Virus record (IMG/VR): IMGVR_UViG_3300046007_002462
Span: 1 to 20,859 of that record
Source: a virus
Reading direction: 5' to 3' (one strand)
DNA: 20,859 nucleotides
Part shown: in pieces, positions 2,266 through 15,000 of the stretch
Layout: each line of letters begins with the position of its first letter
How positions within the stretch are numbered: position 1 is the first letter of the stretch
Position numbers and translations under genes: made by a program
The notes under the pieces: model-generated
Seen by the model: the letters and a program-made list of their open reading frames with translations, nothing else
Told to the model about the DNA's origin: nothing
Database searches by the model: none

Positions 2266-2284
2266 AATAAAGACTCCTTGATGT

Positions 2285-2701
2285 TCAGTTCTTCTTCTTA
2301 CCTATATGGTATTTAGGTACGAGTTCCCAGTTCTGTTTATCTTTATGCGGGATTATTTTCATCTGAGCAAGAGAAACAATTGGATCTCCTGCCTTCTTCT
2401 TGTCAACTATGTCAACAAGACCCCATTCCTCAAGGAGGTTTGCGATTGTGTTCCTGCGACCGATGTCTGTATCATCAATGTCTGTAGGCAAACCATCAAG
2501 TGCAAACAGTTCCTTAAAATGTACTATGTAGAACTTGCCACGTTTGTGTAGTATATGGCAACTCTGATACAACTTGTTTTCTTTCTTGGAGGAAACTCCT
2601 ATTCTCGTAAGAGTTTCCCGCACCTTAAGAAAGTCGTCGTCTGCTTTCAATGTCACCTCAAGCAAATCCTCTGCCTTGAGGCTTAATGTCCTTTTTTCCA
2701 T
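2285..2701 (-). CDS. regA: RegA translational repressor of early mRNAs
   Basis: RegA binds ribosome-binding regions of phage early mRNAs and blocks their translation, including those of the replication genes. The 139-residue product matches T4 RegA along its length. Clear shared blocks are the D-F-L-K-V-R-E-T-L-T-R-I-G segment, LYQSCHILHKRGKFYIVHFK, R-R-N-T-I-A-x-L-L-E-E-W-G-L, and the near-terminal W-E-L-V-P-K-Y-x-I-G. T4 RegA has 122 residues, so this one is slightly longer, with a KKKN tail. The frame is open upstream to a TTG at 2719. The ATG at 2701 is preferred because it has a GAGG ribosome binding site and gives a T4-like N terminus. It is last in the clamp and clamp-loader cluster, as in T4, and a CTAAATA promoter-like element lies in the gap upstream. 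Confidence 0.95.
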   Translation of the reverse strand: MEKRTLSLKAEDLLEVTLKADDDFLKVRETLTRIGVSSKKENKLYQSCHILHKRGKFYIVHFKELFALDGLPTDIDDTDIGRRNTIANLLEEWGLVDIVDKKKAGDPIVSLAQMKIIPHKDKQNWELVPKYHIGKKKN

Positions 2702-2743
2702 ATCGACCTCGCCAATCAATCAAACATTTGCGAATATCGATAA

Positions 2744-2750
2744 TATTTAG
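2744..2750 (-). promoter_or_regulatory. Possible late-promoter-like CTAAATA element before regA
   Basis: On the minus strand the 53-base gap between gp62 and regA contains CTAAATATTATCG. CTAAATA shares the TAAATA core of the T4 late promoter box TATAAATA recognised by gp55. A start about 7-10 bases downstream would give a leader of roughly 30 bases before the RegA ATG. A very similar CTAAATAATAG occurs in the 33-base gap before the gene at 13914. The motif is short and A+T-rich, so chance remains possible. Confidence 0.3.
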
Positions 2751-2754
2751 CATT

Positions 2755-3144
2755 TCAAACTCCTCCACGCATCTCAGATTCACGCTTGACAATCTTGGCA
2801 ATGGTCTTCTTGTCCAAGGTTGTCTTTATCTCCTCTGCCTTACGCACAGAACACCCGAAGATGTCCACGATCTTCTGTGTGACCTCGGCATCTTCCTTCT
2901 TTGCCCATTTCCCAACCCGCTTACGCGGTCTAATGCTATGGAGCAAGAACTCATACTGCATCTGCTTGTCGAGATGACCACGCATATTCATCTCATTTGA
3001 GTGCATTATGGTATCGGGAAATTGCGAAAGACCTCTATTCATGAGATAGGGGGCATACTCAGATGCCCCTCTACCTTCCTCACGAATAAGATTCTTCTTG
3101 GTGAGATTGATACTGTTTAGAAAGTCAAATGGTGAATCATTCAT
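2755..3144 (-). CDS. 62: Clamp loader small subunit gp62
   Basis: gp62 joins gp44 in the 4:1 ATPase that loads the gp45 sliding clamp at primer ends. The 129-residue product shares with T4 gp62 the segment L-S-Q-F-P-D-T-I-M-x-x-N-x-M-N and then R-P-R-K-R-V-G-K-W-A-K, the most recognisable part of the family. T4 gp62 has about 187 residues, so this protein is clearly shorter, mostly at the C terminus. It follows gp44 directly: the ATG at 3144 overlaps the gp44 stop as ATGA, implying coupled translation and fixed stoichiometry. A GTG start at 3159 is possible but would add only five residues and has no better ribosome binding site. Confidence 0.88.
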   Translation of the reverse strand: MNDSPFDFLNSINLTKKNLIREEGRGASEYAPYLMNRGLSQFPDTIMHSNEMNMRGHLDKQMQYEFLLHSIRPRKRVGKWAKKEDAEVTQKIVDIFGCSVRKAEEIKTTLDKKTIAKIVKRESEMRGGV

Positions 3145-4088
3145 TTCTTGAACTCGCACGAAACCATCAGTTCGCTAAGGCAAGCCATGGTGTTGATCTC
3201 TTGGTCTGCCACGAATGCAGACTTGTACTGATAATCGGCAAGGGTGAGGATAGCATGAGGAATAGACTGAGGCTCAAGGATTTCATAGATGGAATCATAG
3301 ATGCTGCGGAACAATCCGACATGGTCGTTGTCAATGTTACTGGCAACCCACTTTCGAATGGATCCAAACTCCTTCTTCTTCATATAACCGACAAGATCAT
3401 TAATCTTGTCTGTGGCAGTCGTACCAAGGATACCCACATCGATCTTCCCACCAAGGGCATACTTCTGAAGATCATTGATGAGTCTTCGGAAGTCGGGAAA
3501 ACGCCTCATGACCAATTCAGCAATGACTTTCTGATCATACTGAATCTCCTCCGAATCAAGAATAGCACACACCCTCTTCATCATCTGCTTTGCCATCTTC
3601 GGCTTTTCGGTCGAAGGAATGCGGAAGTCGATGATTGTGCATCGGGAATGAAGAGGCTGAATGATTCTATTCTTGTAGTTGCAAGTCAGAATAAACCGAC
3701 AGTTCTTTGAGAACTCCTCCATGAAGCCACGAAGTGCTGGCTGCATGGATTGTGGATTGGAATAGTCGAACTCGTCTAGGATGACTACCTTGGCACCACC
3801 ACTAAAGGAAACAGAACTTGCAAAATCCCGAATCCTAGTCCGCAGGGTGTCAATGTTTCCATCTTCGGAGCAGTTGATCAAAATCCAATCGCACCCAAGT
3901 TCATCACACAGAGCCTTTGCAACTGTGGTCTTTCCAACGCCAGGACCACCAGCGAGTAGCATATTTTGAATCTGACCACGATCTATCGTTTCTTCAAATG
4001 TCTTGAGAATGTCTTGCGGAAGAACACAATCTGCGATTCGGGTGGGACGATACTTCTCCGACCACAGATATTCGTCTGTAGCGAGCAT
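3141..4088 (-). CDS. 44: Clamp loader large subunit gp44 (AAA+ ATPase)
   Basis: ATP-driven subunit that opens the gp45 ring and places it on primer-template DNA for the phage polymerase. The 315-residue length is close to T4 gp44 (319). Visible motifs are an N-terminal W-S-E-K-Y-R-P, Walker A GGPGVGKT (47-54), Walker B VVILDEFD (101-108), sensor-1 region RFILTCNYKNRI (131-142) and the arginine-finger S-R-C (148-150). The C-terminal part is helical, as expected for the collar domain. Twelve bases separate it from gp45, with a GGAG ribosome binding site. The initiation region TGGAGTGAATAATG is nearly identical to that of gp46. Confidence 0.96.
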   Translation of the reverse strand: MLATDEYLWSEKYRPTRIADCVLPQDILKTFEETIDRGQIQNMLLAGGPGVGKTTVAKALCDELGCDWILINCSEDGNIDTLRTRIRDFASSVSFSGGAKVVILDEFDYSNPQSMQPALRGFMEEFSKNCRFILTCNYKNRIIQPLHSRCTIIDFRIPSTEKPKMAKQMMKRVCAILDSEEIQYDQKVIAELVMRRFPDFRRLINDLQKYALGGKIDVGILGTTATDKINDLVGYMKKKEFGSIRKWVASNIDNDHVGLFRSIYDSIYEILEPQSIPHAILTLADYQYKSAFVADQEINTMACLSELMVSCEFKK

Positions 4089-4100
4089 TATTCACTCCAT

Positions 4101-4775
4101 TCACTTGGTTTCGGGGCGAAGAGCAATCCAATAGGTAACGCCATTTTTTGTGCCAGTAAACTTGGCTACAGCACTACCGCCGATCTCAACCACATAATCA
4201 TCGGTGAGCATCTTGAGCAGTTCAATGTCGATGTATACAGAACCACTTGTATTCACAGACTTGGCTTTGATAGGAACCTTGTATGTGTTCGACGCGCTAT
4301 TGAGTCCAATCTTCCTATCAAATGCAACAATCTCAATACCACTAGCAGCATTTGGCTTGATGCAGAGGGTATCAAGTTGCAGTACAGAAGCAGCCTTCTG
4401 AACCTCTGCAATTTGATTAGACGATAGTTCAAACTCAGCACTGAGTTCTGGCATCTTGATAGTACGGGTTGCCTTCTCAATCAACTTCTCATCTGCATAG
4501 AAGTATTGGATCTCTCCACCCTTCTGTGAGTTGACAACCACACACTTGTCATCGAAGTTGTAGTCTGCTTCCGAAAACAGACTTGTGGTGGCAATGAACT
4601 TTCCAAGATCGAAAATCGCGAATGGCTTGGGGAAGTTTTCATCCACCTTGGCTTCTGCCATGATGTTCTTTGCTGTAGACACGGTGCGAATCACGCTACC
4701 CTTGTCAACATAGATTGATGAACGAATGCCAGAAAAGTTTTTAAGGATGTCAAATGTCTTCTTGCTGATCTTCAT
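4101..4775 (-). CDS. 45: Sliding clamp gp45
   Basis: Trimeric DNA clamp that tethers the replicative polymerase; in T4 it also activates late transcription through gp33 and gp55. The 224-residue product is almost the length of T4 gp45 (228). It begins M-K-I-S-K-x-T-x-x-x-L-K-N-F, followed by a short repeat-fold pattern including F-A-I-F-D-L-G-K-F, matching the gp45 A-I-Y-D-L-N-G-F-L region, then L-Q-L-D-T-L-C-I and the late A-V-A-K-F-x-G segment. A very strong GAGGAGGAGGA ribosome binding site, formed by the acidic end of the upstream 64-codon gene, precedes the ATG. It is directly followed by gp44 and gp62. Confidence 0.94.
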   Translation of the reverse strand: MKISKKTFDILKNFSGIRSSIYVDKGSVIRTVSTAKNIMAEAKVDENFPKPFAIFDLGKFIATTSLFSEADYNFDDKCVVVNSQKGGEIQYFYADEKLIEKATRTIKMPELSAEFELSSNQIAEVQKAASVLQLDTLCIKPNAASGIEIVAFDRKIGLNSASNTYKVPIKAKSVNTSGSVYIDIELLKMLTDDYVVEIGGSAVAKFTGTKNGVTYWIALRPETK

Positions 4776-4778
4776 AAT

Positions 4779-4973
4779 TTAGTCCTCCTCCTCAAGGTCA
4801 TCCATGAGGTCTTCGTCAATTTCTTCGCCACCATTCACCATATCCTTGAGATCTCTCAAGTGATGTTTGCTTTCATGTCGGTGTCCTCGTCGCTCATGCT
4901 TTCTACCGCGAGAAGATGAATGTCCCTTATCGAAGGGGTCTGATCCACCAACATCTTTCCAGTTCTTGCTCAC
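4779..4973 (-). CDS. Small charged protein of unknown function upstream of gp45
   Basis: A 64-residue protein starting at GTG. Residues 1-40 are basic and rich in H, R, S and G (for example HSSSRGRKHERRGHRHESKH). The last 15 residues are strongly acidic (GEEIDEDLMDDLEEED). It overlaps the upstream gene as GTGA, has a GGAG ribosome binding site eight bases before the GTG, and lies three bases before gp45, so the tight operon context supports a real gene. In T4 the gene in this position is rpbA, an RNA polymerase binding protein; no sequence similarity to it is evident. A role as a small transcription or clamp-associated protein is only a guess from position. Confidence 0.65.
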   Translation of the reverse strand: MSKNWKDVGGSDPFDKGHSSSRGRKHERRGHRHESKHHLRDLKDMVNGGEEIDEDLMDDLEEED

Positions 4974-5407
4974 TTCTCTGTCTCCTTCTTCTCTACTAAG
5001 AGTTGAGATAGGTAATCTACACCAAATGTGTCCTCAATCAACTTCTTTCTCATATTATTCTCTGATATTGTCAAAGGAATGTAATTGCTGAACCCTGGCA
5101 TATTCTTGGGACAATGAACACGCGGGTAATCCAACTTGGAATAATGATTCTCATCAAGATTTGTGAGTTGGGTGTGTGAAAAGTCCCCGCAGTTGCAAGC
5201 CTCGCAAATGAATGAATTTGGATGCTTCTTGCTTTCCAATCTACTTTCACATGGAGCAAGACCCAAAGTTTCTGAACCGTGACACGATATGTCTCGCATA
5301 TCACGAATTTCTTCAGAGACTTTAGCACCAACCAAACCGCGAGATGCAAGAGAATCTGCCACTTGCCATGCTTTTGCAAATCTGCTTCTGAGAAAATAGT
5401 TTTTCAT
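4970..5407 (-). CDS. Conserved Cys-rich protein, possible zinc-binding
   Basis: The 145-residue product has a helical N terminus (F-A-K-A-W-x-V-A-D-S-L-x-S-R-G-L). A cysteine-rich centre follows: S-C-H-G (41-44), a Cys near 53, then C-E-A-C-N-C-G-D (about 69-76), and later Y-S-K-L-D-Y-P-R-V-H-C-P-K-N-M-P-G-F-S-N-Y. The spaced Cys and His residues suggest a zinc-ribbon-like or other metal site. I recall similar unknown proteins near gp45-gp46 in marine T4-like phages, but no named family or function. It is translationally coupled on both sides, overlapping the gp46 stop (ATGA) and the next gene (GTGA). A job in replication or recombination is inferred only from this context. Confidence 0.8.
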   Translation of the reverse strand: MKNYFLRSRFAKAWQVADSLASRGLVGAKVSEEIRDMRDISCHGSETLGLAPCESRLESKKHPNSFICEACNCGDFSHTQLTNLDENHYSKLDYPRVHCPKNMPGFSNYIPLTISENNMRKKLIEDTFGVDYLSQLLVEKKETEK

Positions 5408-7131
5408 CGATTGATCCTACTAAAATTGTTTTTCTTACTGAACGTGAGAACTTCTTGAAACTTATCTGTGAGTTGATCTGTCTTGTGTGAGATGACAAAT
5501 ATGTTGCATCTCTTGCCAAGGCTCTTGATAAGTTTCATAAACTCATCCATCCCTGTCGAGTCAAGGCTTGAATCAAATACCTCATCAAGAACCAAAAGGT
5601 TGCAGTTGGTACTGTTCTTCAGCCTTGCAATCTCTCTCCATGCAAGCAATAGTGCCAAGTCAATACGCATCTTCTCACCTTCACTGAAGGAAGCGTATGT
5701 GAACTCATCACGGTGCCTCGACTTAATCGTCTCTCCAAAGTTTTCATCAAGATTGAACTGCACGAAGAAGTCCATACACGCAAGGTAGTGATTTATCAAC
5801 TTATTCATGATGGGAAGATAGTGCTTGATGATTCTCGTTTTGATGCCACTATCTTTCAGAACCGTTTGTGCAGAGGAAAGAAGTTTCTGTTCTTCTTGCT
5901 TCTCGTCATAATGCTTTTTACTGTCTTCCCATTTCTGCTCAAGTTCATCAAGAACATCCTGTTCAGTTGTCAGGCTTTGCTGAGACTTTTTAATCTTTTC
6001 CACGTCAGCGTTGAGACGTTCAATCATCTTCTCAGCAACGGCAAGTTTTTGTCTGTGTTCATTCAGAGCAGACAAAAACTTTTCATACTCAACTTCGATG
6101 TTGTCTAACTTGTTGTCTGTGATGAATTTTCTTTCGGTGGCAATACGCGATTCAACATCAAGAAGAGCCTTTCGTATCTCCTCTATCTTTCCCTTCTTTA
6201 TTACAATCTCTTTCTCACGATGCTCTTCTGTGAGAGACTGTCCACATGATGGACAGGGAACATCTTTCGTGGTTACAAGAATTGATGTCTCTTCAGTGAG
6301 AATATTGAACTTATTCTCAAGCGTGTTTTTAATCTTGGTCATGTCGCTGATGGATTGTTCCTTCTTGCGACGAAGATCTCGGTTCTTCCCAAGTACAGAC
6401 AACACGTTACCACCCTTAACCACAATCGCGGACAGAGAATCGCGAGCCTTTTCATTGTTCCGTATCTCTTCCTCAAGACCCTCAAGAGATGATCGACTCT
6501 TCTCTTCAAGAGCATCAAGATACTTTCTCTGCGTCTCTTTCTTGCTTTCTAGAATCTCCACCGATGTCTCACAGGTACGCAGATCATCCTTGTTGGTTGA
6601 AATTCTATCCTTGAGAACAACATTCATCGAAGAAAATACACCAATGTCTAATAGAGATTCGACAATGGCTCGCCTATCAGCCGCTGGCAGTCTCATGAAG
6701 GGGACATAGTTCGTGGAGCCAAGTATCACAACTTGACAGAAAGCCTTGTAGGACATCTTGAGGATTTGCTCCTCAAACATTTTCTGATAGTCCTTGGACT
6801 TGGAGTCTTGATCCAAAAGTTTGTCATCCTTATGGATCTCAAATATCTTTGGGTTCAAACCACGACGAACAAGATATTTGGAACTACCAACGTGAAACTC
6901 GCATTCAACAAGGCAATCCTTATTGTTGATGCTGTTTGGTAGTTGTGGGATGTTTATGTTGCGGAAAGGCTTGCCAAAAAGACAGAAGGTAAGCGCATCA
7001 AGGAATGTGGTCTTACCCGCACCATTCTCGCCACAGATCAGAGTCATCTCTGTTTTAGCAAGATTCAACTGCGTGAAATAGTTGCCGTATGAAAGAAAGT
7101 TTTTCCAACGAATGCTATCAAAGACTAACAT
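5404..7131 (-). CDS. 46: Recombination nuclease ATPase subunit gp46 (Rad50/SbcC-like)
   Basis: With gp47 it forms the Mre11-Rad50-type complex that resects DNA ends for recombination-dependent replication and host DNA breakdown. The 575 residues compare with about 560 in T4. Order: N-terminal Walker A GENGAGKT (34-41); Q-loop region around FCQVVILGS (131-139); long coiled-coil arms (about 175-285 and 300-430); a zinc hook CPSC (293-296); the ABC signature FSEGEKMR (481-488); Walker B LLVLDEVFD (511-519); and a D-loop and switch His in I-S-H-K-T. The ATG has GGAG eight bases upstream. Unlike the usual close pairing, its partner gp47 is about 6.8 kb upstream, across an accessory block. Confidence 0.96.
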   Translation of the reverse strand: MLVFDSIRWKNFLSYGNYFTQLNLAKTEMTLICGENGAGKTTFLDALTFCLFGKPFRNINIPQLPNSINNKDCLVECEFHVGSSKYLVRRGLNPKIFEIHKDDKLLDQDSKSKDYQKMFEEQILKMSYKAFCQVVILGSTNYVPFMRLPAADRRAIVESLLDIGVFSSMNVVLKDRISTNKDDLRTCETSVEILESKKETQRKYLDALEEKSRSSLEGLEEEIRNNEKARDSLSAIVVKGGNVLSVLGKNRDLRRKKEQSISDMTKIKNTLENKFNILTEETSILVTTKDVPCPSCGQSLTEEHREKEIVIKKGKIEEIRKALLDVESRIATERKFITDNKLDNIEVEYEKFLSALNEHRQKLAVAEKMIERLNADVEKIKKSQQSLTTEQDVLDELEQKWEDSKKHYDEKQEEQKLLSSAQTVLKDSGIKTRIIKHYLPIMNKLINHYLACMDFFVQFNLDENFGETIKSRHRDEFTYASFSEGEKMRIDLALLLAWREIARLKNSTNCNLLVLDEVFDSSLDSTGMDEFMKLIKSLGKRCNIFVISHKTDQLTDKFQEVLTFSKKNNFSRINR

Positions 7132-7146
7132 TGTTCACTCCAACGG

Positions 7147-7154
7147 TATTTATA
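7147..7154 (-). promoter_or_regulatory. TATAAATA, exact T4-type late promoter box, before gp46
   Basis: The minus strand reads TATAAATA, identical to the T4 late promoter -10 element, ending 15 bases before the gp46 ATG. It overlaps the TAA stop of the 173-residue gene, so stop-codon context (GTA-TAA) could have produced it by chance. Transcription from it would give a leader of less than 10 bases. gp46 is normally an early or middle gene, which is a further reason for doubt. Confidence 0.3.
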
Positions 7155-7671
7155 CAGCCACTTCAAGACCAAGCATCGGATTCTTTTGTTCAAACCAAGC
7201 AGGAACATTTCCAAACTTCCACTTGGCAAATCTAGCCTTCTCGCCAAGGTAATATTGACGATAGGCAACAACTGCATCCTCATGCTTGTACTGATCAGGC
7301 ATTGCCTGTGCAAATGGAGTCAGTTTGTTGTTGTGAATAATGTTTGTAGGAACGTGTCTACAGAACCAATAAGTCATCTCAAATGCTTTGTGAGTCTTTT
7401 TATATCGGTTTGTGTATTCACAAGAAAGTGCATGTGTATGATGTGCAAGCCACATGTAGTTTTCAACTGAATGTCTTGCCCACACTGTGCATGGGTGATT
7501 CATGAATGACATTTTATAGAGATCGACAGGAGCGTAAACAACATGACTCCCTGCCATGCGGTGAATTGTAGAGAGCATCTGACAACCCTCTACAATCATC
7601 TTGACTACATGTTTGTCGCACATATTAATTGCTGCGAGCAGTGGATCACGATTCAATACGAAGATGTTCAT
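7150..7671 (-). CDS. His-rich protein of unknown function
   Basis: A 173-residue protein starting MNIFVLNRDPLLAAINMCDK, then H-V-V-K-M-I-V-E-G-C-Q-M-L-S-T. The middle reads N-H-P-C-T-V-W-A-R-x-S-x-E-N-Y-x-W-L, followed by E-Y-T-x-R-Y-x-K-x-H-K. The end contains T-P-F-A-Q-A-M-P-D-Q-Y and F-A-K-W-K. Conserved-looking His, Cys, Asp and Trp residues suggest an enzyme or nucleic-acid-binding domain. I recall similar unnamed proteins in marine T4-like phages but cannot give a function. It lies between the 1428-residue protein and gp46. There is no ribosome binding site before the ATG; a TTGACA/TAGACT promoter-like pair ends only six bases upstream, an arrangement also seen at uvsY. Confidence 0.8.
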   Translation of the reverse strand: MNIFVLNRDPLLAAINMCDKHVVKMIVEGCQMLSTIHRMAGSHVVYAPVDLYKMSFMNHPCTVWARHSVENYMWLAHHTHALSCEYTNRYKKTHKAFEMTYWFCRHVPTNIIHNNKLTPFAQAMPDQYKHEDAVVAYRQYYLGEKARFAKWKFGNVPAWFEQKNPMLGLEVAV

Positions 7672-7677
7672 ACTAAC

Positions 7678-7705
7678 AGTCTATGTCAAAAAAACAAGAT
7701 GTCAA
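7678..7705 (-). promoter_or_regulatory. Sigma70-like promoter before the 173-residue gene
   Basis: The minus strand has TTGACA (7705-7700), a 16-base spacer with seven consecutive T, and TAGACT (7683-7678), six bases before the ATG at 7671. The -35 box is perfect and the -10 box weak (4 of 6). It occupies most of the 36-base gap after the 1428-residue gene. The layout closely matches the element before uvsY (TTGACATC, then GTTTT), which supports a shared host-type early promoter. A transcript from it would start at or next to the ATG. Confidence 0.45.
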
Positions 7706-7707
7706 GG

Positions 7708-10700
7708 TTAAGATGATTCATATTCTGGTAAACCATAAGATTCAGGTGATTCAAGCCAAACTCCCTTACTACCGGATGGTATCGATATAGTAGTAGGTAG
7801 ATTTGTTTGTGTTGTGCTTGTTTTGGTCAGTGTGGTTTTATTCGGAGGAACTGTAATTCTCCAAAGTCTCTTTGTAGGATCTGTAGTCATAGCACCACTT
7901 ATTACCAAATTTGTTCCTGCTTGAAACAAATCAATTCTATCAACAGTTGCACCCACTGTTGCTGTGGAATTGGTGCATGGAGAACCCACAGTATTGCCAC
8001 TCACTTCTCTCCATTCAACGAGACATTCATTTAGAAGTCTGGGAGTATTTAGTTCAATTGATTCAGCATTTTCTCCACCCGCACCAATACCAGACGCTAC
8101 ATGAAATGGATTGATTCTTCTTACTCCATTCAAACATAGATGAAAAATATGTTCTTTATAGTATTCAGCGGCATAACAATTTCCTTCGTAAAACTGAGTC
8201 GCTAATGCACCACCACTATAACCACCATCTGTTCCTCCTAATGAAGAAACAACCCAAGTGTACATACCATCAAGATATGCATCAGGCTTTGATCGTAGAA
8301 TTCCCCGAACTCGTCTAATATCATTTATAAATGCTTGATACGCTGAATTTCCAAAAGTAATACCACCTTCACTAACTGGATGCCAACCAAAAGATTTACC
8401 ATATCTAACGTCTTCATCTGTTGATTGAGACGGTGGATATCCATAATTTAATACATATCCACCCCCACCCCCATCCAGACCATTTGCTAGTTTTCCACCA
8501 GCGAGTTGAGCGTAGGAATGCCATACATGTCCGTAACCAGGAATGTAAACTTGCGCTCTTTGATGCCCATTAAGATCGGTAGAAAATTTAGATTCTGCTG
8601 CCGACATAGCATGTACATCAGCAGATGCACACAGAACTGATTCAAAACCAGGTTCATCATTACACGCACCACCTATAATTTTTGTCTTCGAATCTCCATG
8701 CCAAAATGTGTATATGGCAGAATTCCAAGCATACCATTGATATTGCTTATCTCTTTCTATTCCATATAAAGGTGTAAAGTCAAATCTGTCGGTTATATCT
8801 GTCAAATATGAGTTGAGAATAGTTTCAGCAGAAGCACCACAAATACCAGATCCATTTGCAAGACGGTATTGGTTGTAATAAAACTCAAACTCTTCAGCAA
8901 AACTTCTACCAGTTATACTACTAGTGATACCACGGAATCTTGGGTCTAGTACCATAGCCTTCTTTCCTCTGGCATCTGGTATTTGCAGATAATTAACATT
9001 CTGAGCAAATGCATCTATGGCTGCGGTGTTTCCTGGTGTTTGATCGTCATAGAAACTACCATATGCAAAAAACCCACCAGTTTCGGAATCATCCTGCAAG
9101 TGTGAAAAAAACAAGCCATCATTCTTTGCTTGCTTCAAGAAGTTTTGAAACGACTCCTTTGCATTGTTTCTGTGTTCATATGCCCATATCGTTGAAAATC
9201 GAAGTGGAACCGTATCTCCATACGGATAAGTTCCACCAAACTCTTGCGACGTATAGGTTTTACCGGGAATATTTGATCCATAGGTTGTACCATCACTCGT
9301 TTTCTTCCAAAAATAATCTGCTCTTCTTTGTCCAGGAGGACCATCAAGAAGCCAATATGTCGGCAAAACAACCCTGCGCTCCAAAGGAATCTGTTCCGCA
9401 AGAGTCTTAAATTGAAGATATTGATCAAATGGTAGTCCACCTGTATTGTTTACTTCAAGATTCTCACCAGAGAATCCAACGCCTATAATAGGATTACCTC
9501 TATAATAAACGGATGTTGGTCGCAGCATCGGAACTATTGATGGGGTGCTTTCTGTATCCGTGTATTGCTTATACGATGCACCAAATACTGCAAAATCCAA
9601 TGCACGGAAGAAACCAGTTCTTGATGTATCAGGTGGCTCAATCAACCCGTTGACAAGTTCTTCGTGAAGTTCGTTGAAATACAAAGAGTCAAGCCCTGCC
9701 GTGATACCACCCTTCATGCAAGCATAAAGAAGTTCGAACTCAGATGTACGAGCATTTCCCGTCCAAAAGTTCTGCGGTGGCTTTGTTGGAGTTCTTCTGT
9801 TTGCATATGGAAAATTGGAAACAACAGTGCCTTTTTGATTTGCTTCCATATTTGGTTCGAAGAATATTCCCAGGCTCTTGTCATACCATCCAGATCGATT
9901 CAAGTAATTGTAATACCCGATACCATCGTGGAAATGATCCAAGATGCTAGTATTCAATGCCAACATCGTCGGATAAAGATAGAATAAGCGGAATCTTCTA
10001 TCATGCATCCACGGAACACCATCATTAGTATTATTAAAAAATGTTCCATTAACTTTCTTCCACTTTATGTCTCCGTCATTTTCTACTTCTATAAACGTAT
10101 TATAGAAGCATGGGAATGCACTCATAGCAGACTTATTGGTGTCCGCAAGGTCTTGTGGAATGCATGATGCAAATATTTCACCAAGTTCAGTGCTACCACA
10201 AACACCCATACCCCATATAGAATTCGAATAGGTTGTTCCCCATTTTCTTTGTCCTAAAAGCATATCATGTGCTGACGAGAAAAGATCATTTGCTTTGTCA
10301 TTATCTAAACACCAGTGTCTAGGATTTGTGTCTCCACTAAATCTCCGTTGATCGTTTCTATTCGGATCATTCAACCCAACATCGTCCTTAAACATGTACT
10401 GAGCAAAACGCTCAACACCAAGAACAACTCCTTTATTTGCATTTGGACCAGAGTTTCCAAATGTGTAGTTATATTGATCTTTAACCCATTCCACGGGAAT
10501 ATTTTCAACATAACTTGCTCCAGAACTAGCAATATTTGTCCAAAGCGTGAATCCAGGTTCTTGCCAACGATGATAAGTTCTCTCTATTACTGCGCTTGCA
10601 TCCATAACAACATGTGCAAAGCCATCGAATGGCGACTTGAACTTCTCTTTCCAGTGAGAAACAGACGCATCAAGTCTCCACTTAAAATAGTTCTTATTTC

Positions 10701-11994
10701 CAGCAATAGTTGGATCTTTGTAGAGTGCAAATGGAATTCTCATTTCAAAGCCTGTTCCATAAGGAAGGCAGCCAAGATACGCAATGAATTCCATGGAGTT
10801 GCCCCATGTTTCTGAAAGTTGATTCAGCGATTCAAGGAGGGTTTCACCATATCCATAAGAAAGCCCAACCACATCAGACATCGGAGATTTAGCAACCGCA
10901 TCTGAAAGAATCTGTGGATTGGATGGGAAAGTATTTCCATTAAACATTAACAGACTATTGTAATGAAAACAAAGCCCCGCACGTTCACTAGCATTTCCCC
11001 ACCATGATGAGTATGTAATTGCATCAGGAAATCGAATCCACGGAGAACCAACAATAACTCTATCCGCAGAATATCCACCACCCGTTCTACCATAATCATT
11101 AAATGGAACTATTGATATCACACCAGCATTAAAACAAACACCCCTATAAAGAGTGTTCAAATGAATATCCGTTATGCCATCAACAACAACTCCAAGTTCC
11201 GCTGATCTTCCCATCGTGTGATCTGAAAGCAAATCTTGTATTGTTGTATTTTCTCGCATCAACAAATACATGTCAAACTGAAATGATTCAGAAGTATATC
11301 TGTCACTCAACCACGGATATCTTCGCCAATTTCCTGCGAGACTATTCATTGGGCTTGTAAAATTGCCATATGGACTATGCAATAAAGAACGACGAATACA
11401 GTTGTCGTAGTTTGCACTGAATCCCATATGAATTTGCTGTGGTAAAGAATTTCCAGGATACCAATCAAATCTTGGGTGATATCCAAAGAAAGCATTACCA
11501 CCATTAAATAAGAAATCCTGAGCATATATTCCATTCAAGTTATATTGAACAAATTTATTTGCTGCTCTCTTCGGACTTCTTGCTCGTTCAAACTTCTTGT
11601 ATGCAGCGCGAACAGCGGACGCAAAATCTTTTGGGTGTGTTAGTGGATCAAACCACCCTTCATCTCCACTTGTTGTATAATTAAAGGCAGTTTCTACAGT
11701 ACCACCTAAAACAAGCGGATTTATACCACTTGAGATACCCAACAATTGCATTGTTGCAGATTTACCGAGGTCAGCAGTTGCAGCAGACCAACCTGGTTCA
11801 TATCTGCTTATAAGATAATTGAACACTCTATTAAATTTCTCTTGAAACTCTACATTTGGTGTTTCTGTAATAATAATTGGACTGCGAGTTCCTTGTTCAA
11901 ATATAGAACTCTGTGATGAGTTTACTCCTGTGAGTTTAGCATTTGTCAACTTTACTTTATAGTTGTTGAGAACTCGTATGTTAACAATCTTCAT
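7708..11994 (-). CDS. Very large protein of unknown family, putative virion or host-interaction protein
   Basis: This 1428-residue protein is the largest gene in the window and I do not recognise its family. It is rich in W, Y, F, N and G with few charged coiled-coil stretches, as in secreted or virion-exposed beta-rich proteins and glycan-active enzymes. There is no signal peptide or membrane segment. Around residues 960-985 it has LFFSHLQDDSETGGFFAYGS, an acidic pocket-like segment reminiscent of glycoside hydrolase active sites, but no diagnostic motif. A glycine run lies near 1170. The last 100 residues are Ser/Thr-rich and beta-like, resembling a terminal sandwich domain. Its ATG overlaps the upstream beta-sandwich gene as ATGA, so it is coupled to probable structural proteins. 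The gene is visibly more A+T-rich than core genes on either side, suggesting separate acquisition. A tail-spike, fibre or decorating enzyme role is inference. Confidence 0.85.
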   Translation of the reverse strand: MKIVNIRVLNNYKVKLTNAKLTGVNSSQSSIFEQGTRSPIIITETPNVEFQEKFNRVFNYLISRYEPGWSAATADLGKSATMQLLGISSGINPLVLGGTVETAFNYTTSGDEGWFDPLTHPKDFASAVRAAYKKFERARSPKRAANKFVQYNLNGIYAQDFLFNGGNAFFGYHPRFDWYPGNSLPQQIHMGFSANYDNCIRRSLLHSPYGNFTSPMNSLAGNWRRYPWLSDRYTSESFQFDMYLLMRENTTIQDLLSDHTMGRSAELGVVVDGITDIHLNTLYRGVCFNAGVISIVPFNDYGRTGGGYSADRVIVGSPWIRFPDAITYSSWWGNASERAGLCFHYNSLLMFNGNTFPSNPQILSDAVAKSPMSDVVGLSYGYGETLLESLNQLSETWGNSMEFIAYLGCLPYGTGFEMRIPFALYKDPTIAGNKNYFKWRLDASVSHWKEKFKSPFDGFAHVVMDASAVIERTYHRWQEPGFTLWTNIASSGASYVENIPVEWVKDQYNYTFGNSGPNANKGVVLGVERFAQYMFKDDVGLNDPNRNDQRRFSGDTNPRHWCLDNDKANDLFSSAHDMLLGQRKWGTTYSNSIWGMGVCGSTELGEIFASCIPQDLADTNKSAMSAFPCFYNTFIEVENDGDIKWKKVNGTFFNNTNDGVPWMHDRRFRLFYLYPTMLALNTSILDHFHDGIGYYNYLNRSGWYDKSLGIFFEPNMEANQKGTVVSNFPYANRRTPTKPPQNFWTGNARTSEFELLYACMKGGITAGLDSLYFNELHEELVNGLIEPPDTSRTGFFRALDFAVFGASYKQYTDTESTPSIVPMLRPTSVYYRGNPIIGVGFSGENLEVNNTGGLPFDQYLQFKTLAEQIPLERRVVLPTYWLLDGPPGQRRADYFWKKTSDGTTYGSNIPGKTYTSQEFGGTYPYGDTVPLRFSTIWAYEHRNNAKESFQNFLKQAKNDGLFFSHLQDDSETGGFFAYGSFYDDQTPGNTAAIDAFAQNVNYLQIPDARGKKAMVLDPRFRGITSSITGRSFAEEFEFYYNQYRLANGSGICGASAETILNSYLTDITDRFDFTPLYGIERDKQYQWYAWNSAIYTFWHGDSKTKIIGGACNDEPGFESVLCASADVHAMSAAESKFSTDLNGHQRAQVYIPGYGHVWHSYAQLAGGKLANGLDGGGGGYVLNYGYPPSQSTDEDVRYGKSFGWHPVSEGGITFGNSAYQAFINDIRRVRGILRSKPDAYLDGMYTWVVSSLGGTDGGYSGGALATQFYEGNCYAAEYYKEHIFHLCLNGVRRINPFHVASGIGAGGENAESIELNTPRLLNECLVEWREVSGNTVGSPCTNSTATVGATVDRIDLFQAGTNLVISGAMTTDPTKRLWRITVPPNKTTLTKTSTTQTNLPTTISIPSGSKGVWLESPESYGLPEYESS

Positions 11995-12440
11995 TTCGTT
12001 GACTCCGCTTCAACTTCTATTTTTCCTGAAAGAAGTTTGCTTACTATTTCCCCACCACTTACACTATGAATAAGTTCCATATCATAAAAATATCTACCCG
12101 CTTTAAATGCGGCTGTTGTGTCTGCTGATAAAACAAGTCGCATGAATCCAGTTGCACCACCAAGGAAGAATACACCATCTTGTACAAACCCTTGAGTACT
12201 GCCTGGTTGAAAGGCATAGGTCATTGTTGTTCCTATAGTGAATAAAATAGGATCACGATACTTAGACTTTCGAATCTTCATTCGAACATTATAGTCATCA
12301 ATAGAATACACCAACGTACCAAATGCATTTATCTCTGATGTCAAAAGAGACAACGGCTGAAGTTCATCATTGAATACTTGAAACTCAAGCACAAATGTTG
12401 AACCCTGTTCAACCGACAAATCTGTATTCAATGCTGGCAT
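11991..12440 (-). CDS. BppU-like beta-sandwich protein, second tandem copy
   Basis: A 149-residue paralogue of the gene just upstream. Shared features, in order, are V-E-Q-G-S-T-F-V-L-E-F near the N terminus, V-R-M-K-I-R-K-S-K-Y-R in the middle, S-T-Q-G-x-x-x-D-G-x-F-F, then L-V-L-S-A-D-T-T-A-A-F-K-A-G-R-Y-F-Y-D-M-E-L, and finally L-L-S-G-K-I-E-V-E-A-E. This layout is typical of short phage virion proteins related to the N-terminal domain of baseplate protein BppU, which attach fibres or decorate virions. The start overlaps the previous stop as TAATG and its stop overlaps the 1428-residue gene as ATGA. It may connect that large protein to the particle, which is inferred from gene order only. 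Confidence 0.75.
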   Translation of the reverse strand: MPALNTDLSVEQGSTFVLEFQVFNDELQPLSLLTSEINAFGTLVYSIDDYNVRMKIRKSKYRDPILFTIGTTMTYAFQPGSTQGFVQDGVFFLGGATGFMRLVLSADTTAAFKAGRYFYDMELIHSVSGGEIVSKLLSGKIEVEAESTK

Positions 12441-12883
12441 TAGTTTGTCACCTCTGCTTCAATGTCCATTCTACCAGACAAAGCCTTAGTAACTTCTGTG
12501 CTACTTCCTTTCGTCTGCACAACTTCAATATCATAAAAATATTTTCCATACTTTAAAGAAGCAGTGGTGTTAGAAGAAATGACAAACTTTACTCTACCTT
12601 GATTTTCCGAGTCAAAGTAAAATCCATCAACCGTGTTGCCTTGAGTACTTTCAACATTACTCTGCAAAACTGCGTTATACGTTATCCCAAGTATCGGTGT
12701 GTTCGTCCTATACTTTGTTTTTCTGACTTTCATTCTCATGCTTATATCAGTTGCAGATGCAACTGCTGTTGACTGATTGGTTTGAGTTGTGGTCAATGCG
12801 GTATCATCATCTTTCTTCAGATCAAACTGAAGAATGAATGTAGAACCTTGCTCAACCAAAAAGTCTTGCTCAACTAAAGCCAT
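12440..12883 (-). CDS. BppU-like beta-sandwich protein, first tandem copy
   Basis: A 147-residue protein with V-E-Q-G-S-T-F-I-L-Q-F near residues 10-20, S-M-R-M-K-V-R-K-T-K-Y-R in the middle, S-T-Q-G-N-x-V-D-G-F-Y-F, then V-I-S-S-N-T-T-A-S-L-K-Y-G-K-Y-F-Y-D-I-E-V and a terminal A-L-S-G-R-M-D-I-E-A-E-V-T. The terminal G-x-x-x-I-E-A-E-V-T with an upstream Y-D-I-E is the hallmark I associate with small beta-rich virion proteins of marine phages. The next gene is a clear paralogue, so the pair arose by duplication. The start overlaps the preceding stop as TAATG. The two could form a heteromeric collar, fibre base or decoration; there is no direct evidence which. Confidence 0.75.
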   Translation of the reverse strand: MALVEQDFLVEQGSTFILQFDLKKDDDTALTTTQTNQSTAVASATDISMRMKVRKTKYRTNTPILGITYNAVLQSNVESTQGNTVDGFYFDSENQGRVKFVISSNTTASLKYGKYFYDIEVVQTKGSSTEVTKALSGRMDIEAEVTN

Positions 12884-13914
12884 TATTCCCCCTGTGTGAG
12901 ATCAGTCACGCTCTTGTCTTTACGCCACATCTGACACGACCAGTACTTTGGCGTGTCTCTTGCAATTCCGCCTTTGTCACAACCATGTCTTGCTCGGAAG
13001 TTCTTCAGTCTACCCGGTTGATCTCGCTTGATTGAAAGACCAGGATCACCAAAGCGGACAATCTTGTTGTCTACGCAGACGGCAAACTTCTTCTTCTCAC
13101 CAGGAGTTCTCCACGGCTTTCCAGCCTGTCTACCTTCACATTCATTTGCCTCAGCAAGGCTTTTACCCGTAATAGCCTTCATGAAGGAGTCTGCGGCGTT
13201 CTCGTCATCGAACATGAACTCAGTGGTTTCCTTCTGTGACTTTGTCTTGGCACCGAACTTCTTTGCATAAGAACGAAGTTCATCTGCACCAACACCCGAC
13301 TTCAAATTGTCTTGAACGATGTATTTCTCAACTACAACTGCTGCGGTTCTGCCAATGACCTCACCGAAAGTTTTCATTTCAGAAAGTATTTGTTCTCTAT
13401 CAACAAAACCATTGAAGTTGTATCTGCCTTCCTTAACGGTCTTCCAATCACCACCAAGTTCCTTGTATTTGGCAGATGCCCATCCGTTGGAGTATGCACT
13501 TGGGTGAACACGGAAACCTTTTCCGTTGTTTGGTCCTTCTATAGTCTTTCCGTTATATTCAATGCTTGCAACCTTACCAGAAACCAATGATTGGATCTTA
13601 GACCAAAGTTCCTTATTGGTTGGTTCATTTTCTTCAGTAATCTTCCCCTTGCCAAAATTGGATACCATGATCGGCTCACCCTTTCGTTCTGGATTTGGAT
13701 CGTGTTTTCTCTTTGTACGGACAGCCGATGCTCTCTCACGTTTGGAAAGCATGGCTCTCTTTTCATTGGACATGCACTTGGGCTTTGGTTCACCAGGCTC
13801 TCTGGCACAGGGACCAATCGCTTCACCTTTGGAATTGATTCGCTTCCAACCACCCTCTGGGTGGGATTTACTAAACCAATTTCTCAAATCTTCAGAAGTA
13901 AGAACTCTACCCAT
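12883..13914 (-). CDS. Cys/His-rich phage protein with DUF5872-like N terminus
   Basis: The 343-residue product has three parts. Residues 1-85 contain G-W-K-R-I-N-S-K-G-E-A-I-G-P-C-A-R-E-P-G-E followed by P-K-P-K-C and a highly basic stretch, resembling DUF5872-type segments of phage and giant-virus proteins. The centre (about 100-250) is mixed alpha/beta without a recognised motif. The C terminus (about 275-335) has KKFAVCVDNKIVRFGDPG, then F-R-A-R-H-G-C-D-K-G-G and Y-W-S-C-Q-M-W. That Cys/His/Trp module recurs at the C terminus of some marine phage capsid-assembly proteins, to my recollection, and may bind zinc. It starts at ATG 13914 with AGGAGA eight bases upstream. It is the first gene of the accessory block after gp47. 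Function is unknown; a virion or assembly role is plausible. Confidence 0.72.
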   Translation of the reverse strand: MGRVLTSEDLRNWFSKSHPEGGWKRINSKGEAIGPCAREPGEPKPKCMSNEKRAMLSKRERASAVRTKRKHDPNPERKGEPIMVSNFGKGKITEENEPTNKELWSKIQSLVSGKVASIEYNGKTIEGPNNGKGFRVHPSAYSNGWASAKYKELGGDWKTVKEGRYNFNGFVDREQILSEMKTFGEVIGRTAAVVVEKYIVQDNLKSGVGADELRSYAKKFGAKTKSQKETTEFMFDDENAADSFMKAITGKSLAEANECEGRQAGKPWRTPGEKKKFAVCVDNKIVRFGDPGLSIKRDQPGRLKNFRARHGCDKGGIARDTPKYWSCQMWRKDKSVTDLTQGE

Positions 13915-13936
13915 TTCATGTCTCCTAGTTGCCTAT

Positions 13937-13943
13937 TATTTAG
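13937..13943 (-). promoter_or_regulatory. Possible late-promoter-like CTAAATA before the accessory block
   Basis: The 33-base gap between gp47 and the 343-residue gene reads CTAAATAATAG on the minus strand, sharing the TAAATA core of T4-type late promoters and closely matching the element before regA. Placement at the head of the presumed structural cassette makes sense for late expression. The distance to the ATG is 22 bases and includes the ribosome binding site, so the leader would be short. Confidence 0.35.
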
Positions 13944-13947
13944 GAAA

Positions 13948-15000
13948 CTAGAGAGACAAACTTTCAGTATAAAGTTCTCGCATCAGGGACTTTAGGGATG
14001 ATCCATCATCGACCTTCAGTTCATCGATGTAGCCGTCGATGAGTTCAATGGTGTTCTTGGAAAGTTCCTTTTCCGACACAAACTCATCCTCAACCTGTTC
14101 CTCTTCCTCAAGTTTCTCCACGATCTGTAGATCGTAGATTCCTGATTCAAAGAGTTTGTCGCAGAACATATCAAACTTGGCAGTGTTCTTCTTTGACGAA
14201 ACCACCAATTTCACAAAAGAGTCCTTGTAAGTAGAGAAGTTGAAGTTTCCGTGACCCAGGTTGTCAAGATTCTCATTGTAAGATATCTTCTTGTACAACT
14301 TTCGGGTGTTCTCAACAAACTCTAACGAGCCATCTTCCGTGTCCAAGACATGAAAACCCTTAGTTTCCGTTGCCTCAGAGTAGAACATTTCGTAAGCAGT
14401 GCCAAGGTAGTGGACATTCCCGTTCTGCTGTTTGCAATGAAAGTGTCCCGAATACACTTGCTTGAAGCGAGAAAGTACCGATGGATTTAATCCACCTTCG
14501 TGCTTCACACCACGAACCACCTCATACCCTGTGAGTTCGAAGTGTCCAAAAAGCACATCAGCATTGCTCTTCTTGAGATACTCATATACCTCTGCCGCAT
14601 TATCCTTCGCAATCCATGGAACAAATCCACAAATCACACCACCCAACATAACATCGGTTGGTTTCTCATAGACCTTGAATGTATCACCAAATATTTCAAC
14701 AACAGAATTGACCTGATTGGTGTTCTTCCAATAGCAATCATGGTTTCCGATGACACAATGAACTTCAACCTCGTTCTTGGAGAACCACTCAGTAAATCTC
14801 CGTCGAACATTGTGTAGCGTATTGAAGTTTATGTATTTTCTGCGATCAAGCACATCACCCATGTGAATGACGGTCTTGATTCCCTTCTTGGTGAGGTAAG
14901 GGAAAACCTGTTCCTCAAAATAGGAAAGATACGCCTCAAGGAAAATCGGGTCATCATTTTTTACACCAAAGTGAGTATCTGTGATGATTGCAATTTTCAT
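13948..15000 (-). CDS. 47: Recombination nuclease subunit gp47 (Mre11/SbcD-like)
   Basis: Metal-dependent nuclease partner of gp46. The 350 residues are near the T4 length (339). The calcineurin-like phosphoesterase motifs appear in order: DTH (8-10), GDVLDRR (48-54), GNHD (85-88), GHFE (152-155) and SGHFH (184-188), giving the two-metal site. The C-terminal third is acidic (E-E-E-E-Q-V-E-D-E-F) and probably binds the base of the gp46 coiled coil. Its ATG overlaps the gp55 stop as ATGA, so nuclease and late sigma factor are translated together. The gp46 gene is not adjacent but follows a 6.8 kb accessory block. Confidence 0.96.
   Translation of the reverse strand: MKIAIITDTHFGVKNDDPIFLEAYLSYFEEQVFPYLTKKGIKTVIHMGDVLDRRKYINFNTLHNVRRRFTEWFSKNEVEVHCVIGNHDCYWKNTNQVNSVVEIFGDTFKVYEKPTDVMLGGVICGFVPWIAKDNAAEVYEYLKKSNADVLFGHFELTGYEVVRGVKHEGGLNPSVLSRFKQVYSGHFHCKQQNGNVHYLGTAYEMFYSEATETKGFHVLDTEDGSLEFVENTRKLYKKISYNENLDNLGHGNFNFSTYKDSFVKLVVSSKKNTAKFDMFCDKLFESGIYDLQIVEKLEEEEQVEDEFVSEKELSKNTIELIDGYIDELKVDDGSSLKSLMRELYTESLSL

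Follow-up and report, generated by a model that had tools for sequence, protein, structure and literature searches.

A modular protein of a T4-like phage record, proposed to be a baseplate-anchored adhesin with an exchangeable glycosidase-type barrel

Phage enzymes known to degrade capsule or O-antigen have been described as beta-helix spikes (PMC5380687). In tailspike depolymerases such as those of P22, Sf6 and HK620, and in the tailspike proteins (TSPs) of Ackermannviridae, a conserved N-terminal part anchors the protein to the virion, the host-facing glycan module is exchangeable, and modules are swapped between phages (PMC5380687, PMC8432352). In the Rhodobacter gene transfer agent (GTA), a peripheral triosephosphate isomerase (TIM)-barrel domain of the baseplate hub (the "megatron") protrudes from the tail baseplate, and its function is given as unknown (PMC13420450). 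The present analysis concerns a protein of 1428 amino acids (aa) encoded by an open reading frame (ORF) on the minus strand at 7708..11994 (stop codon 7708-7710, coding 7711-11994) of IMG/VR record IMGVR_UViG_3300046007_002462, a 20.9-kb metagenomic virus record assigned to a T4-like phage. The whole stretch of 20,859 nucleotides is referred to here as the window. The protein is probably a modular adhesin or enzyme on the baseplate of this phage, with an exchangeable glycosidase-type barrel that would act on host glycans.

As in the tailspike depolymerases, a conserved N-terminal part (the head) precedes a region that is exchanged between phages (the cassette), and some alleles of the present family carry a beta-helix. 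Unlike those proteins, the window protein has a module predicted to be a TIM barrel with a beta-sandwich, and the anchor is a domain of ~800 aa tied to wedge proteins, either gp25 or gp53-like. The megatron shares with it a TIM-barrel domain on a tail baseplate, which for the window protein is predicted only; it differs in being the hub of a gene transfer agent, and cassette exchange is undescribed for it in the portion of the report available (PMC13420450). In a Pfam search at E up to 1, which included no direct comparison with the GTA protein, no match tied the window protein to the megatron family. An incomplete literature search found no paper combining TIM barrel, phage, tailspike and depolymerase.

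Relatives of the protein come from uncultured phages. IMG/VR was scanned with the 1428-aa protein, its 149-aa neighbour and a profile of the head, and ~20 contigs with relatives were recovered (designated by L numbers where they must be told apart). Among them, the length of the large ORF varies between 767 and 2272 aa. Alignments show a head of ~770-805 aa in every relative, and the region behind the head varies. In the window, the head occupies residues 1-805 (9580..11994, minus strand), the cassette residues 806-1349 (7948..9579, minus), and a C-terminal beta domain, more conserved than the barrel, residues 1350-1428 (7711..7947, minus). The head occurs with no further module in L017, L020 and L029, with a barrel in the window, L002, L004, L015 and L018, with a beta-helix in L011, and with both barrel and beta-helix in L003 and L012. 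In L016 two diverged barrels follow the head in tandem, the second (12341-14485) being 29% identical to that of the window, and in the 1646-aa wedge-fused protein of L036 (5023-9963) a version of the cassette interrupts the head, with the last ~70 residues of the head following it. The beta-helix of the relatives (L003, L011, L012) matches PF13229 (E 1e-12) and the tailspike family phrog_7458 (E 6e-8); no right-handed parallel beta-helix was found in the window protein by Pfam search or in its AlphaFold model. The family thus consists of a conserved anchor with an exchangeable C-terminal module, as in tailspikes.

The cassette has undergone allelic replacement. When the DNA of the window is aligned with that of L002 using blastn, positions 2276-7945 are 97% identical and positions 9582-12360 are 86% identical, with no alignment between them; the gap corresponds to residues 806-1349. 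Between L003 and L004, synonymous divergence (dS) rises about nine-fold at the cassette boundary, from 0.31 for the head to 2.86 for the cassette; the pair of the window and L002 has values of 0.84, 1.71 and 0.22 for head, cassette and C terminus, respectively. Because dS would not be raised by selection acting only on the protein, these jumps indicate that the cassette was replaced by recombination, and rapid evolution in place is ruled out as the source of its divergence. The phylogenies place the window in different company on the two sides of the boundary: with L002-L004 in the head tree (support 99/99), and with L015, L016 and L018 in the barrel tree (100/100). Shared insertions and deletions in the alignment agree with the trees. 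An approximately unbiased (AU) test on the head data rejected the cassette grouping (p 0.006).

There is good indirect evidence, from sequence comparison, that the head belongs to the tail baseplate, since it is fused to two different wedge proteins in related phages. In L035 (8554-11325) a gp25 domain precedes the head in a single ORF (PF04965, E 4e-11; phrog_261, E 8e-27). L032 and L038 carry the gp25-head fusion by sequence too, and complete ORFs of this type measure 907-923 aa. In L034 and L036 the head lies behind a gp53-like wedge region (phrog_17744, E 1e-12 and 8e-5), which has weak matches to a cyanophage "baseplate wedge initiator" and is encoded beside gp25 and gp6 genes. The kinship with the T4 wedge proteins gp25 and gp53 lies in these fusions; the window protein itself has no wedge domain, and in its lineage the gp25 and gp53-like genes are separate and elsewhere, ~45 kb away in the record of L012. 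Alignment shows that the first 47 residues of the window protein (11854..11994, minus), a possible docking segment, are confined to the window lineage and absent where the head is wedge-fused.

The cassette and the C-terminal domain were modelled with AlphaFold2 on 12 sequences. Comparison of the cassette model by VIA-align returned TIM-barrel carbohydrate-active enzymes in all of the 50 top rows, the best being the glycoside hydrolase (GH) 4uoz of family GH42 (Z 10.3, 361 residues, root-mean-square deviation 5.3), with PgaB (Z 8.1), GH27 (~8) and GH35 (~7.5) among further rows; Z values of 7-8 are typical of unmatched models, and the Z of ~10 for the cassette exceeds them, but not by much. 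At moderate to low confidence, residues 806-1349 with the C-terminal domain are predicted as likely to form a glycosidase-type TIM barrel with a beta-sandwich. The predicted likeness to glycoside hydrolases that combine a TIM barrel and a beta-sandwich (GH42, GH27, GH35, GH13) covers both the cassette fold (VIA-align Z 7-10) and the C-terminal beta domain, whereas sequence identity is 4-12% and the acidic residues differ, with a D-x-E on one strand. Assignment to any one of these four families was rejected, as the Z values are too close and the conserved acids are not decisive. No glycosidase family matched the window protein in Pfam (E up to 1) or NCBIfam (E up to 10), or any of the 12 module copies in Pfam at E up to 1. 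The Ser/Thr-rich, beta-like C terminus seen by the first-pass annotation corresponds to residues ~1350-1428, the best-predicted part of the model (predicted local distance difference test, pLDDT, ~79-89). The model of the head is poor (pLDDT 46.9; predicted template modelling score, pTM, 0.45), and the VIA rows that score highest for it, at Z 4-6, are TIM barrels for the most part, maybe by chance. Homology between head and cassette was tried by profile comparison and was not significant (hhalign probability 5%). A viral structure library gave no useful match to either model.

A candidate active site is found in the cassette. The acidic segment LQDDSETGG, placed near residue 970 when the sequence was first inspected, spans residues 966-974 and contains D969-x-E971 (9082..9090, minus), which follows a predicted barrel strand and is invariant in 12/12 module copies, including two that are only 22% and 29% identical to the window. 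The sole other acidic residue invariant in the alignment of all 12/12 copies is E1281 (8152..8154, minus). Substrate-assisted glycosidases, e.g. GH18 and GH25, use a D-x-E pair that ends a strand of the barrel, in their case the fourth. Because the pair resembles that of GH18 and GH25, a polymer of N-acetylated sugars is a plausible substrate by analogy.

The proposed device would work as follows. Residues 1-805 would be the conserved, baseplate-docking head, covalently linked to a gp25 or gp53-like wedge protein in some relatives, and docking in the window lineage would presumably be through the first 47 residues and/or the co-translated 147- and 149-aa proteins. The barrel would be held between the head and the C-terminal beta-sandwich, facing the host, and a polysaccharide of the host surface is probably what it binds and cleaves by hydrolysis; D969 and E971, at the strand end, would be the catalytic residues. 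Specificity would change as the barrel is swapped, lost, duplicated, or replaced or extended by a beta-helix. A bolder form of this proposal, which we advance only tentatively, is that the protein represents a new class of contractile-tail host-recognition device, with a wedge-linked head that is maybe itself a diverged TIM barrel and with at least one exchangeable TIM-barrel glycosidase module, a depolymerase swapped as the beta-helices of tailspikes are. A family whose swapped specificity cassette is a barrel of glycosidase type, exchanged for or lengthened by a beta-helix and carried on a wedge-linked domain, would set a second architecture beside the beta-helix spikes. It would also make host recognition in uncultured T4-like phages accessible from sequence and point to candidate enzymes that cleave polysaccharides. 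In other metagenomic phages, large baseplate proteins that lack annotation are picked out by the head profile.

Several results weigh against the proposal of a baseplate-borne glycosidase. The barrel model, with alternating helices and strands before the well-predicted beta domain, is of only moderate quality (pLDDT 59.8, pTM 0.65), and a Foldseek search of the cassette model against the PDB gave no match below E 0.001; the best, at 0.03, and the other leading sub-threshold matches were GH13-type barrels. In the model, D-x-E falls on the third clear strand and not on the fourth, though the strand count is uncertain, and among the 12 copies no later barrel strand carries a second invariant carboxylate. 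The AU test on the cassette data did not reject the head grouping, i.e., a congruent barrel tree (p 0.175), which is why exchange is argued here from dS, the DNA breakpoints and the common insertions and deletions. The gene sits among replication genes, outside the baseplate cluster (~45 kb off in the record of L012), and no isolated phage among the phage records searched has a relative of the protein. A degenerate TIM barrel whose role is confined to binding host sugars, as a lectin-like receptor-binding domain, or to spacing the next module, would account for the single tight invariant D-x-E with no partner carboxylate. It would also suit the absence of the barrel from some phages of the same lineage, by which the barrel is not essential, and the TIM-barrel domain on the GTA baseplate is likewise still of unknown function (PMC13420450). 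Nevertheless, D969 and E971 are invariant even at 22-29% identity, beyond the need of pure binding, and the exchange of the barrel for a beta-helix module of tailspike type points to an enzymatic class; a barrel devoid of catalysis is thus unlikely, if still to be reckoned with.

It is improbable that the whole protein is a structural baseplate component or whisker-like decoration that makes no direct host contact and varies by neutral exchange. The head is the larger part of the protein, under a ratio of nonsynonymous to synonymous divergence (dN/dS) of ~0.07 and fused to wedge proteins, as a structural part might be, but variation is limited to the distal module, which a tailspike-like beta-helix can replace, a pattern shared with host-recognition proteins (compare the swapped tailspike modules of Ackermannviridae; PMC8432352). 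The neighbouring genes gp44, gp45, gp46, gp47, gp55 and uvsW (clamp, SbcCD, sigma and helicase functions) could suggest an intracellular enzyme or a replication-associated protein. This is scarcely credible given the wedge fusions, the beta-helix extensions, the co-transcribed partners resembling phrog_1084 and phrog_3304, and a three-gene island that stands out by low GC at the third positions of codons (GC3) and whose cassette has a separate history of recombination. The modular glycosidase or adhesin remains our preferred reading, and the first-pass annotation, which had proposed a large exposed, glycan-active enzyme or adhesin, was right in direction and is largely supported by the wedge fusions, the cassette swaps and beta-helix, the likeness to TIM-type glycosidases only, and D969-x-E971. 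The support is only partial, because the variable module makes up only ~40% of the protein and the larger part looks baseplate-structural, with model confidence moderate for the barrel and low for the head. Of the folds that annotation had looked to, a TIM barrel or a beta-helix with clustered acidic residues, the prediction, whose confidence is moderate to low, gave a TIM-barrel-like cassette containing D969 and E971, and no beta-helix.

The ORF has an ATG start and 0 internal stops, and homologues occupy the same slot in related contigs; relatives that are 71-74% identical to it overall are full length. The dN/dS of ~0.07 for the head was obtained against L002 and represents strong purifying selection, indicating a real gene. 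As had been anticipated, no family is recognisable: Pfam, PHROGs, NCBIfam and PDB sequences all lack a match to the protein, and profiles of the head and cassette found none among PDB sequences. A tblastn search with the protein gave 0 matches in 50,697 phage and 72,556 plasmid records, and the divergent L035 head and the second L016 cassette copy found no match when searched against phages. The protein is therefore an orphan with respect to isolated phages, and not with respect to uncultured ones, given the ~20 IMG/VR contigs. Pattern scans of bacterial genomes from 84,980 species with cassette and head profiles, a method that detects close relatives only, found no relative, and thus there is no evidence for a bacterial donor or prophage. 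Richness in W, Y, N and G was confirmed (G 9.7%, W+Y 8.0%, N 6.9%). The reported A+T excess over the neighbours is modest overall (GC 0.394 vs 0.422 for the window) and clear at GC3, which is 0.27 for this gene and 0.267 for the 149-aa gene, against 0.34-0.54 for nearly all other window genes. The three-gene island at 7708-12883 has a GC3 of 0.27-0.34 within a region mostly at 0.4-0.5, which suggests different codon pressure or recent acquisition.

The other two genes of the island encode a 149-aa protein (11991..12440, minus), matching phrog_1084 and weakly phrog_3304 (L-shaped tail fibre assembly), and its 147-aa paralogue (12440..12883, minus), which also matches phrog_1084 and is 41% identical to it in pairwise comparison. 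Translational coupling, noted at first inspection, is borne out: 4 bases (ATGA, in AATGAAG) are common to the start of the 1428-aa gene and the end of the 149-aa gene upstream of it, which they close with its stop codon, and the 147- and 149-aa genes abut. The overlap is common to contigs of the window lineage wherever both genes are complete, and gene order is the same in every one of them (147 aa, 149 aa, large ORF, pyrimidine-dimer glycosylase, gp46). A 343-aa protein (12883-13914, minus) abuts the 147-aa gene and matches phrog_727 (E 5e-18) over its first 86 residues; its central part varies among close relatives, with lengths of 343 to 405 aa. The gp23 (major capsid protein) of the window is 56% identical to that of cyanophage and marine T4-like phages, and family matches include uvsW, gp55, gp47, gp46 and a regA-type translational regulator, by which gene content the window is assigned to a T4-like phage. 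The gp19-, gp44- and gp45-like genes are putative, named from sequence and position only. GIY-YIG ORFs (PF01541), absent from the window, lie between gp55 and gp47 in L003 (2425-3159) and before uvsW in L004 (899-1537), and probably encode homing endonucleases. A 426-aa protein (985-2265, minus), encoded within the replication cluster of the window, combines a glycosyltransferase domain of family 2 (PF00535, E 4e-14) with a long extension at its C terminus.

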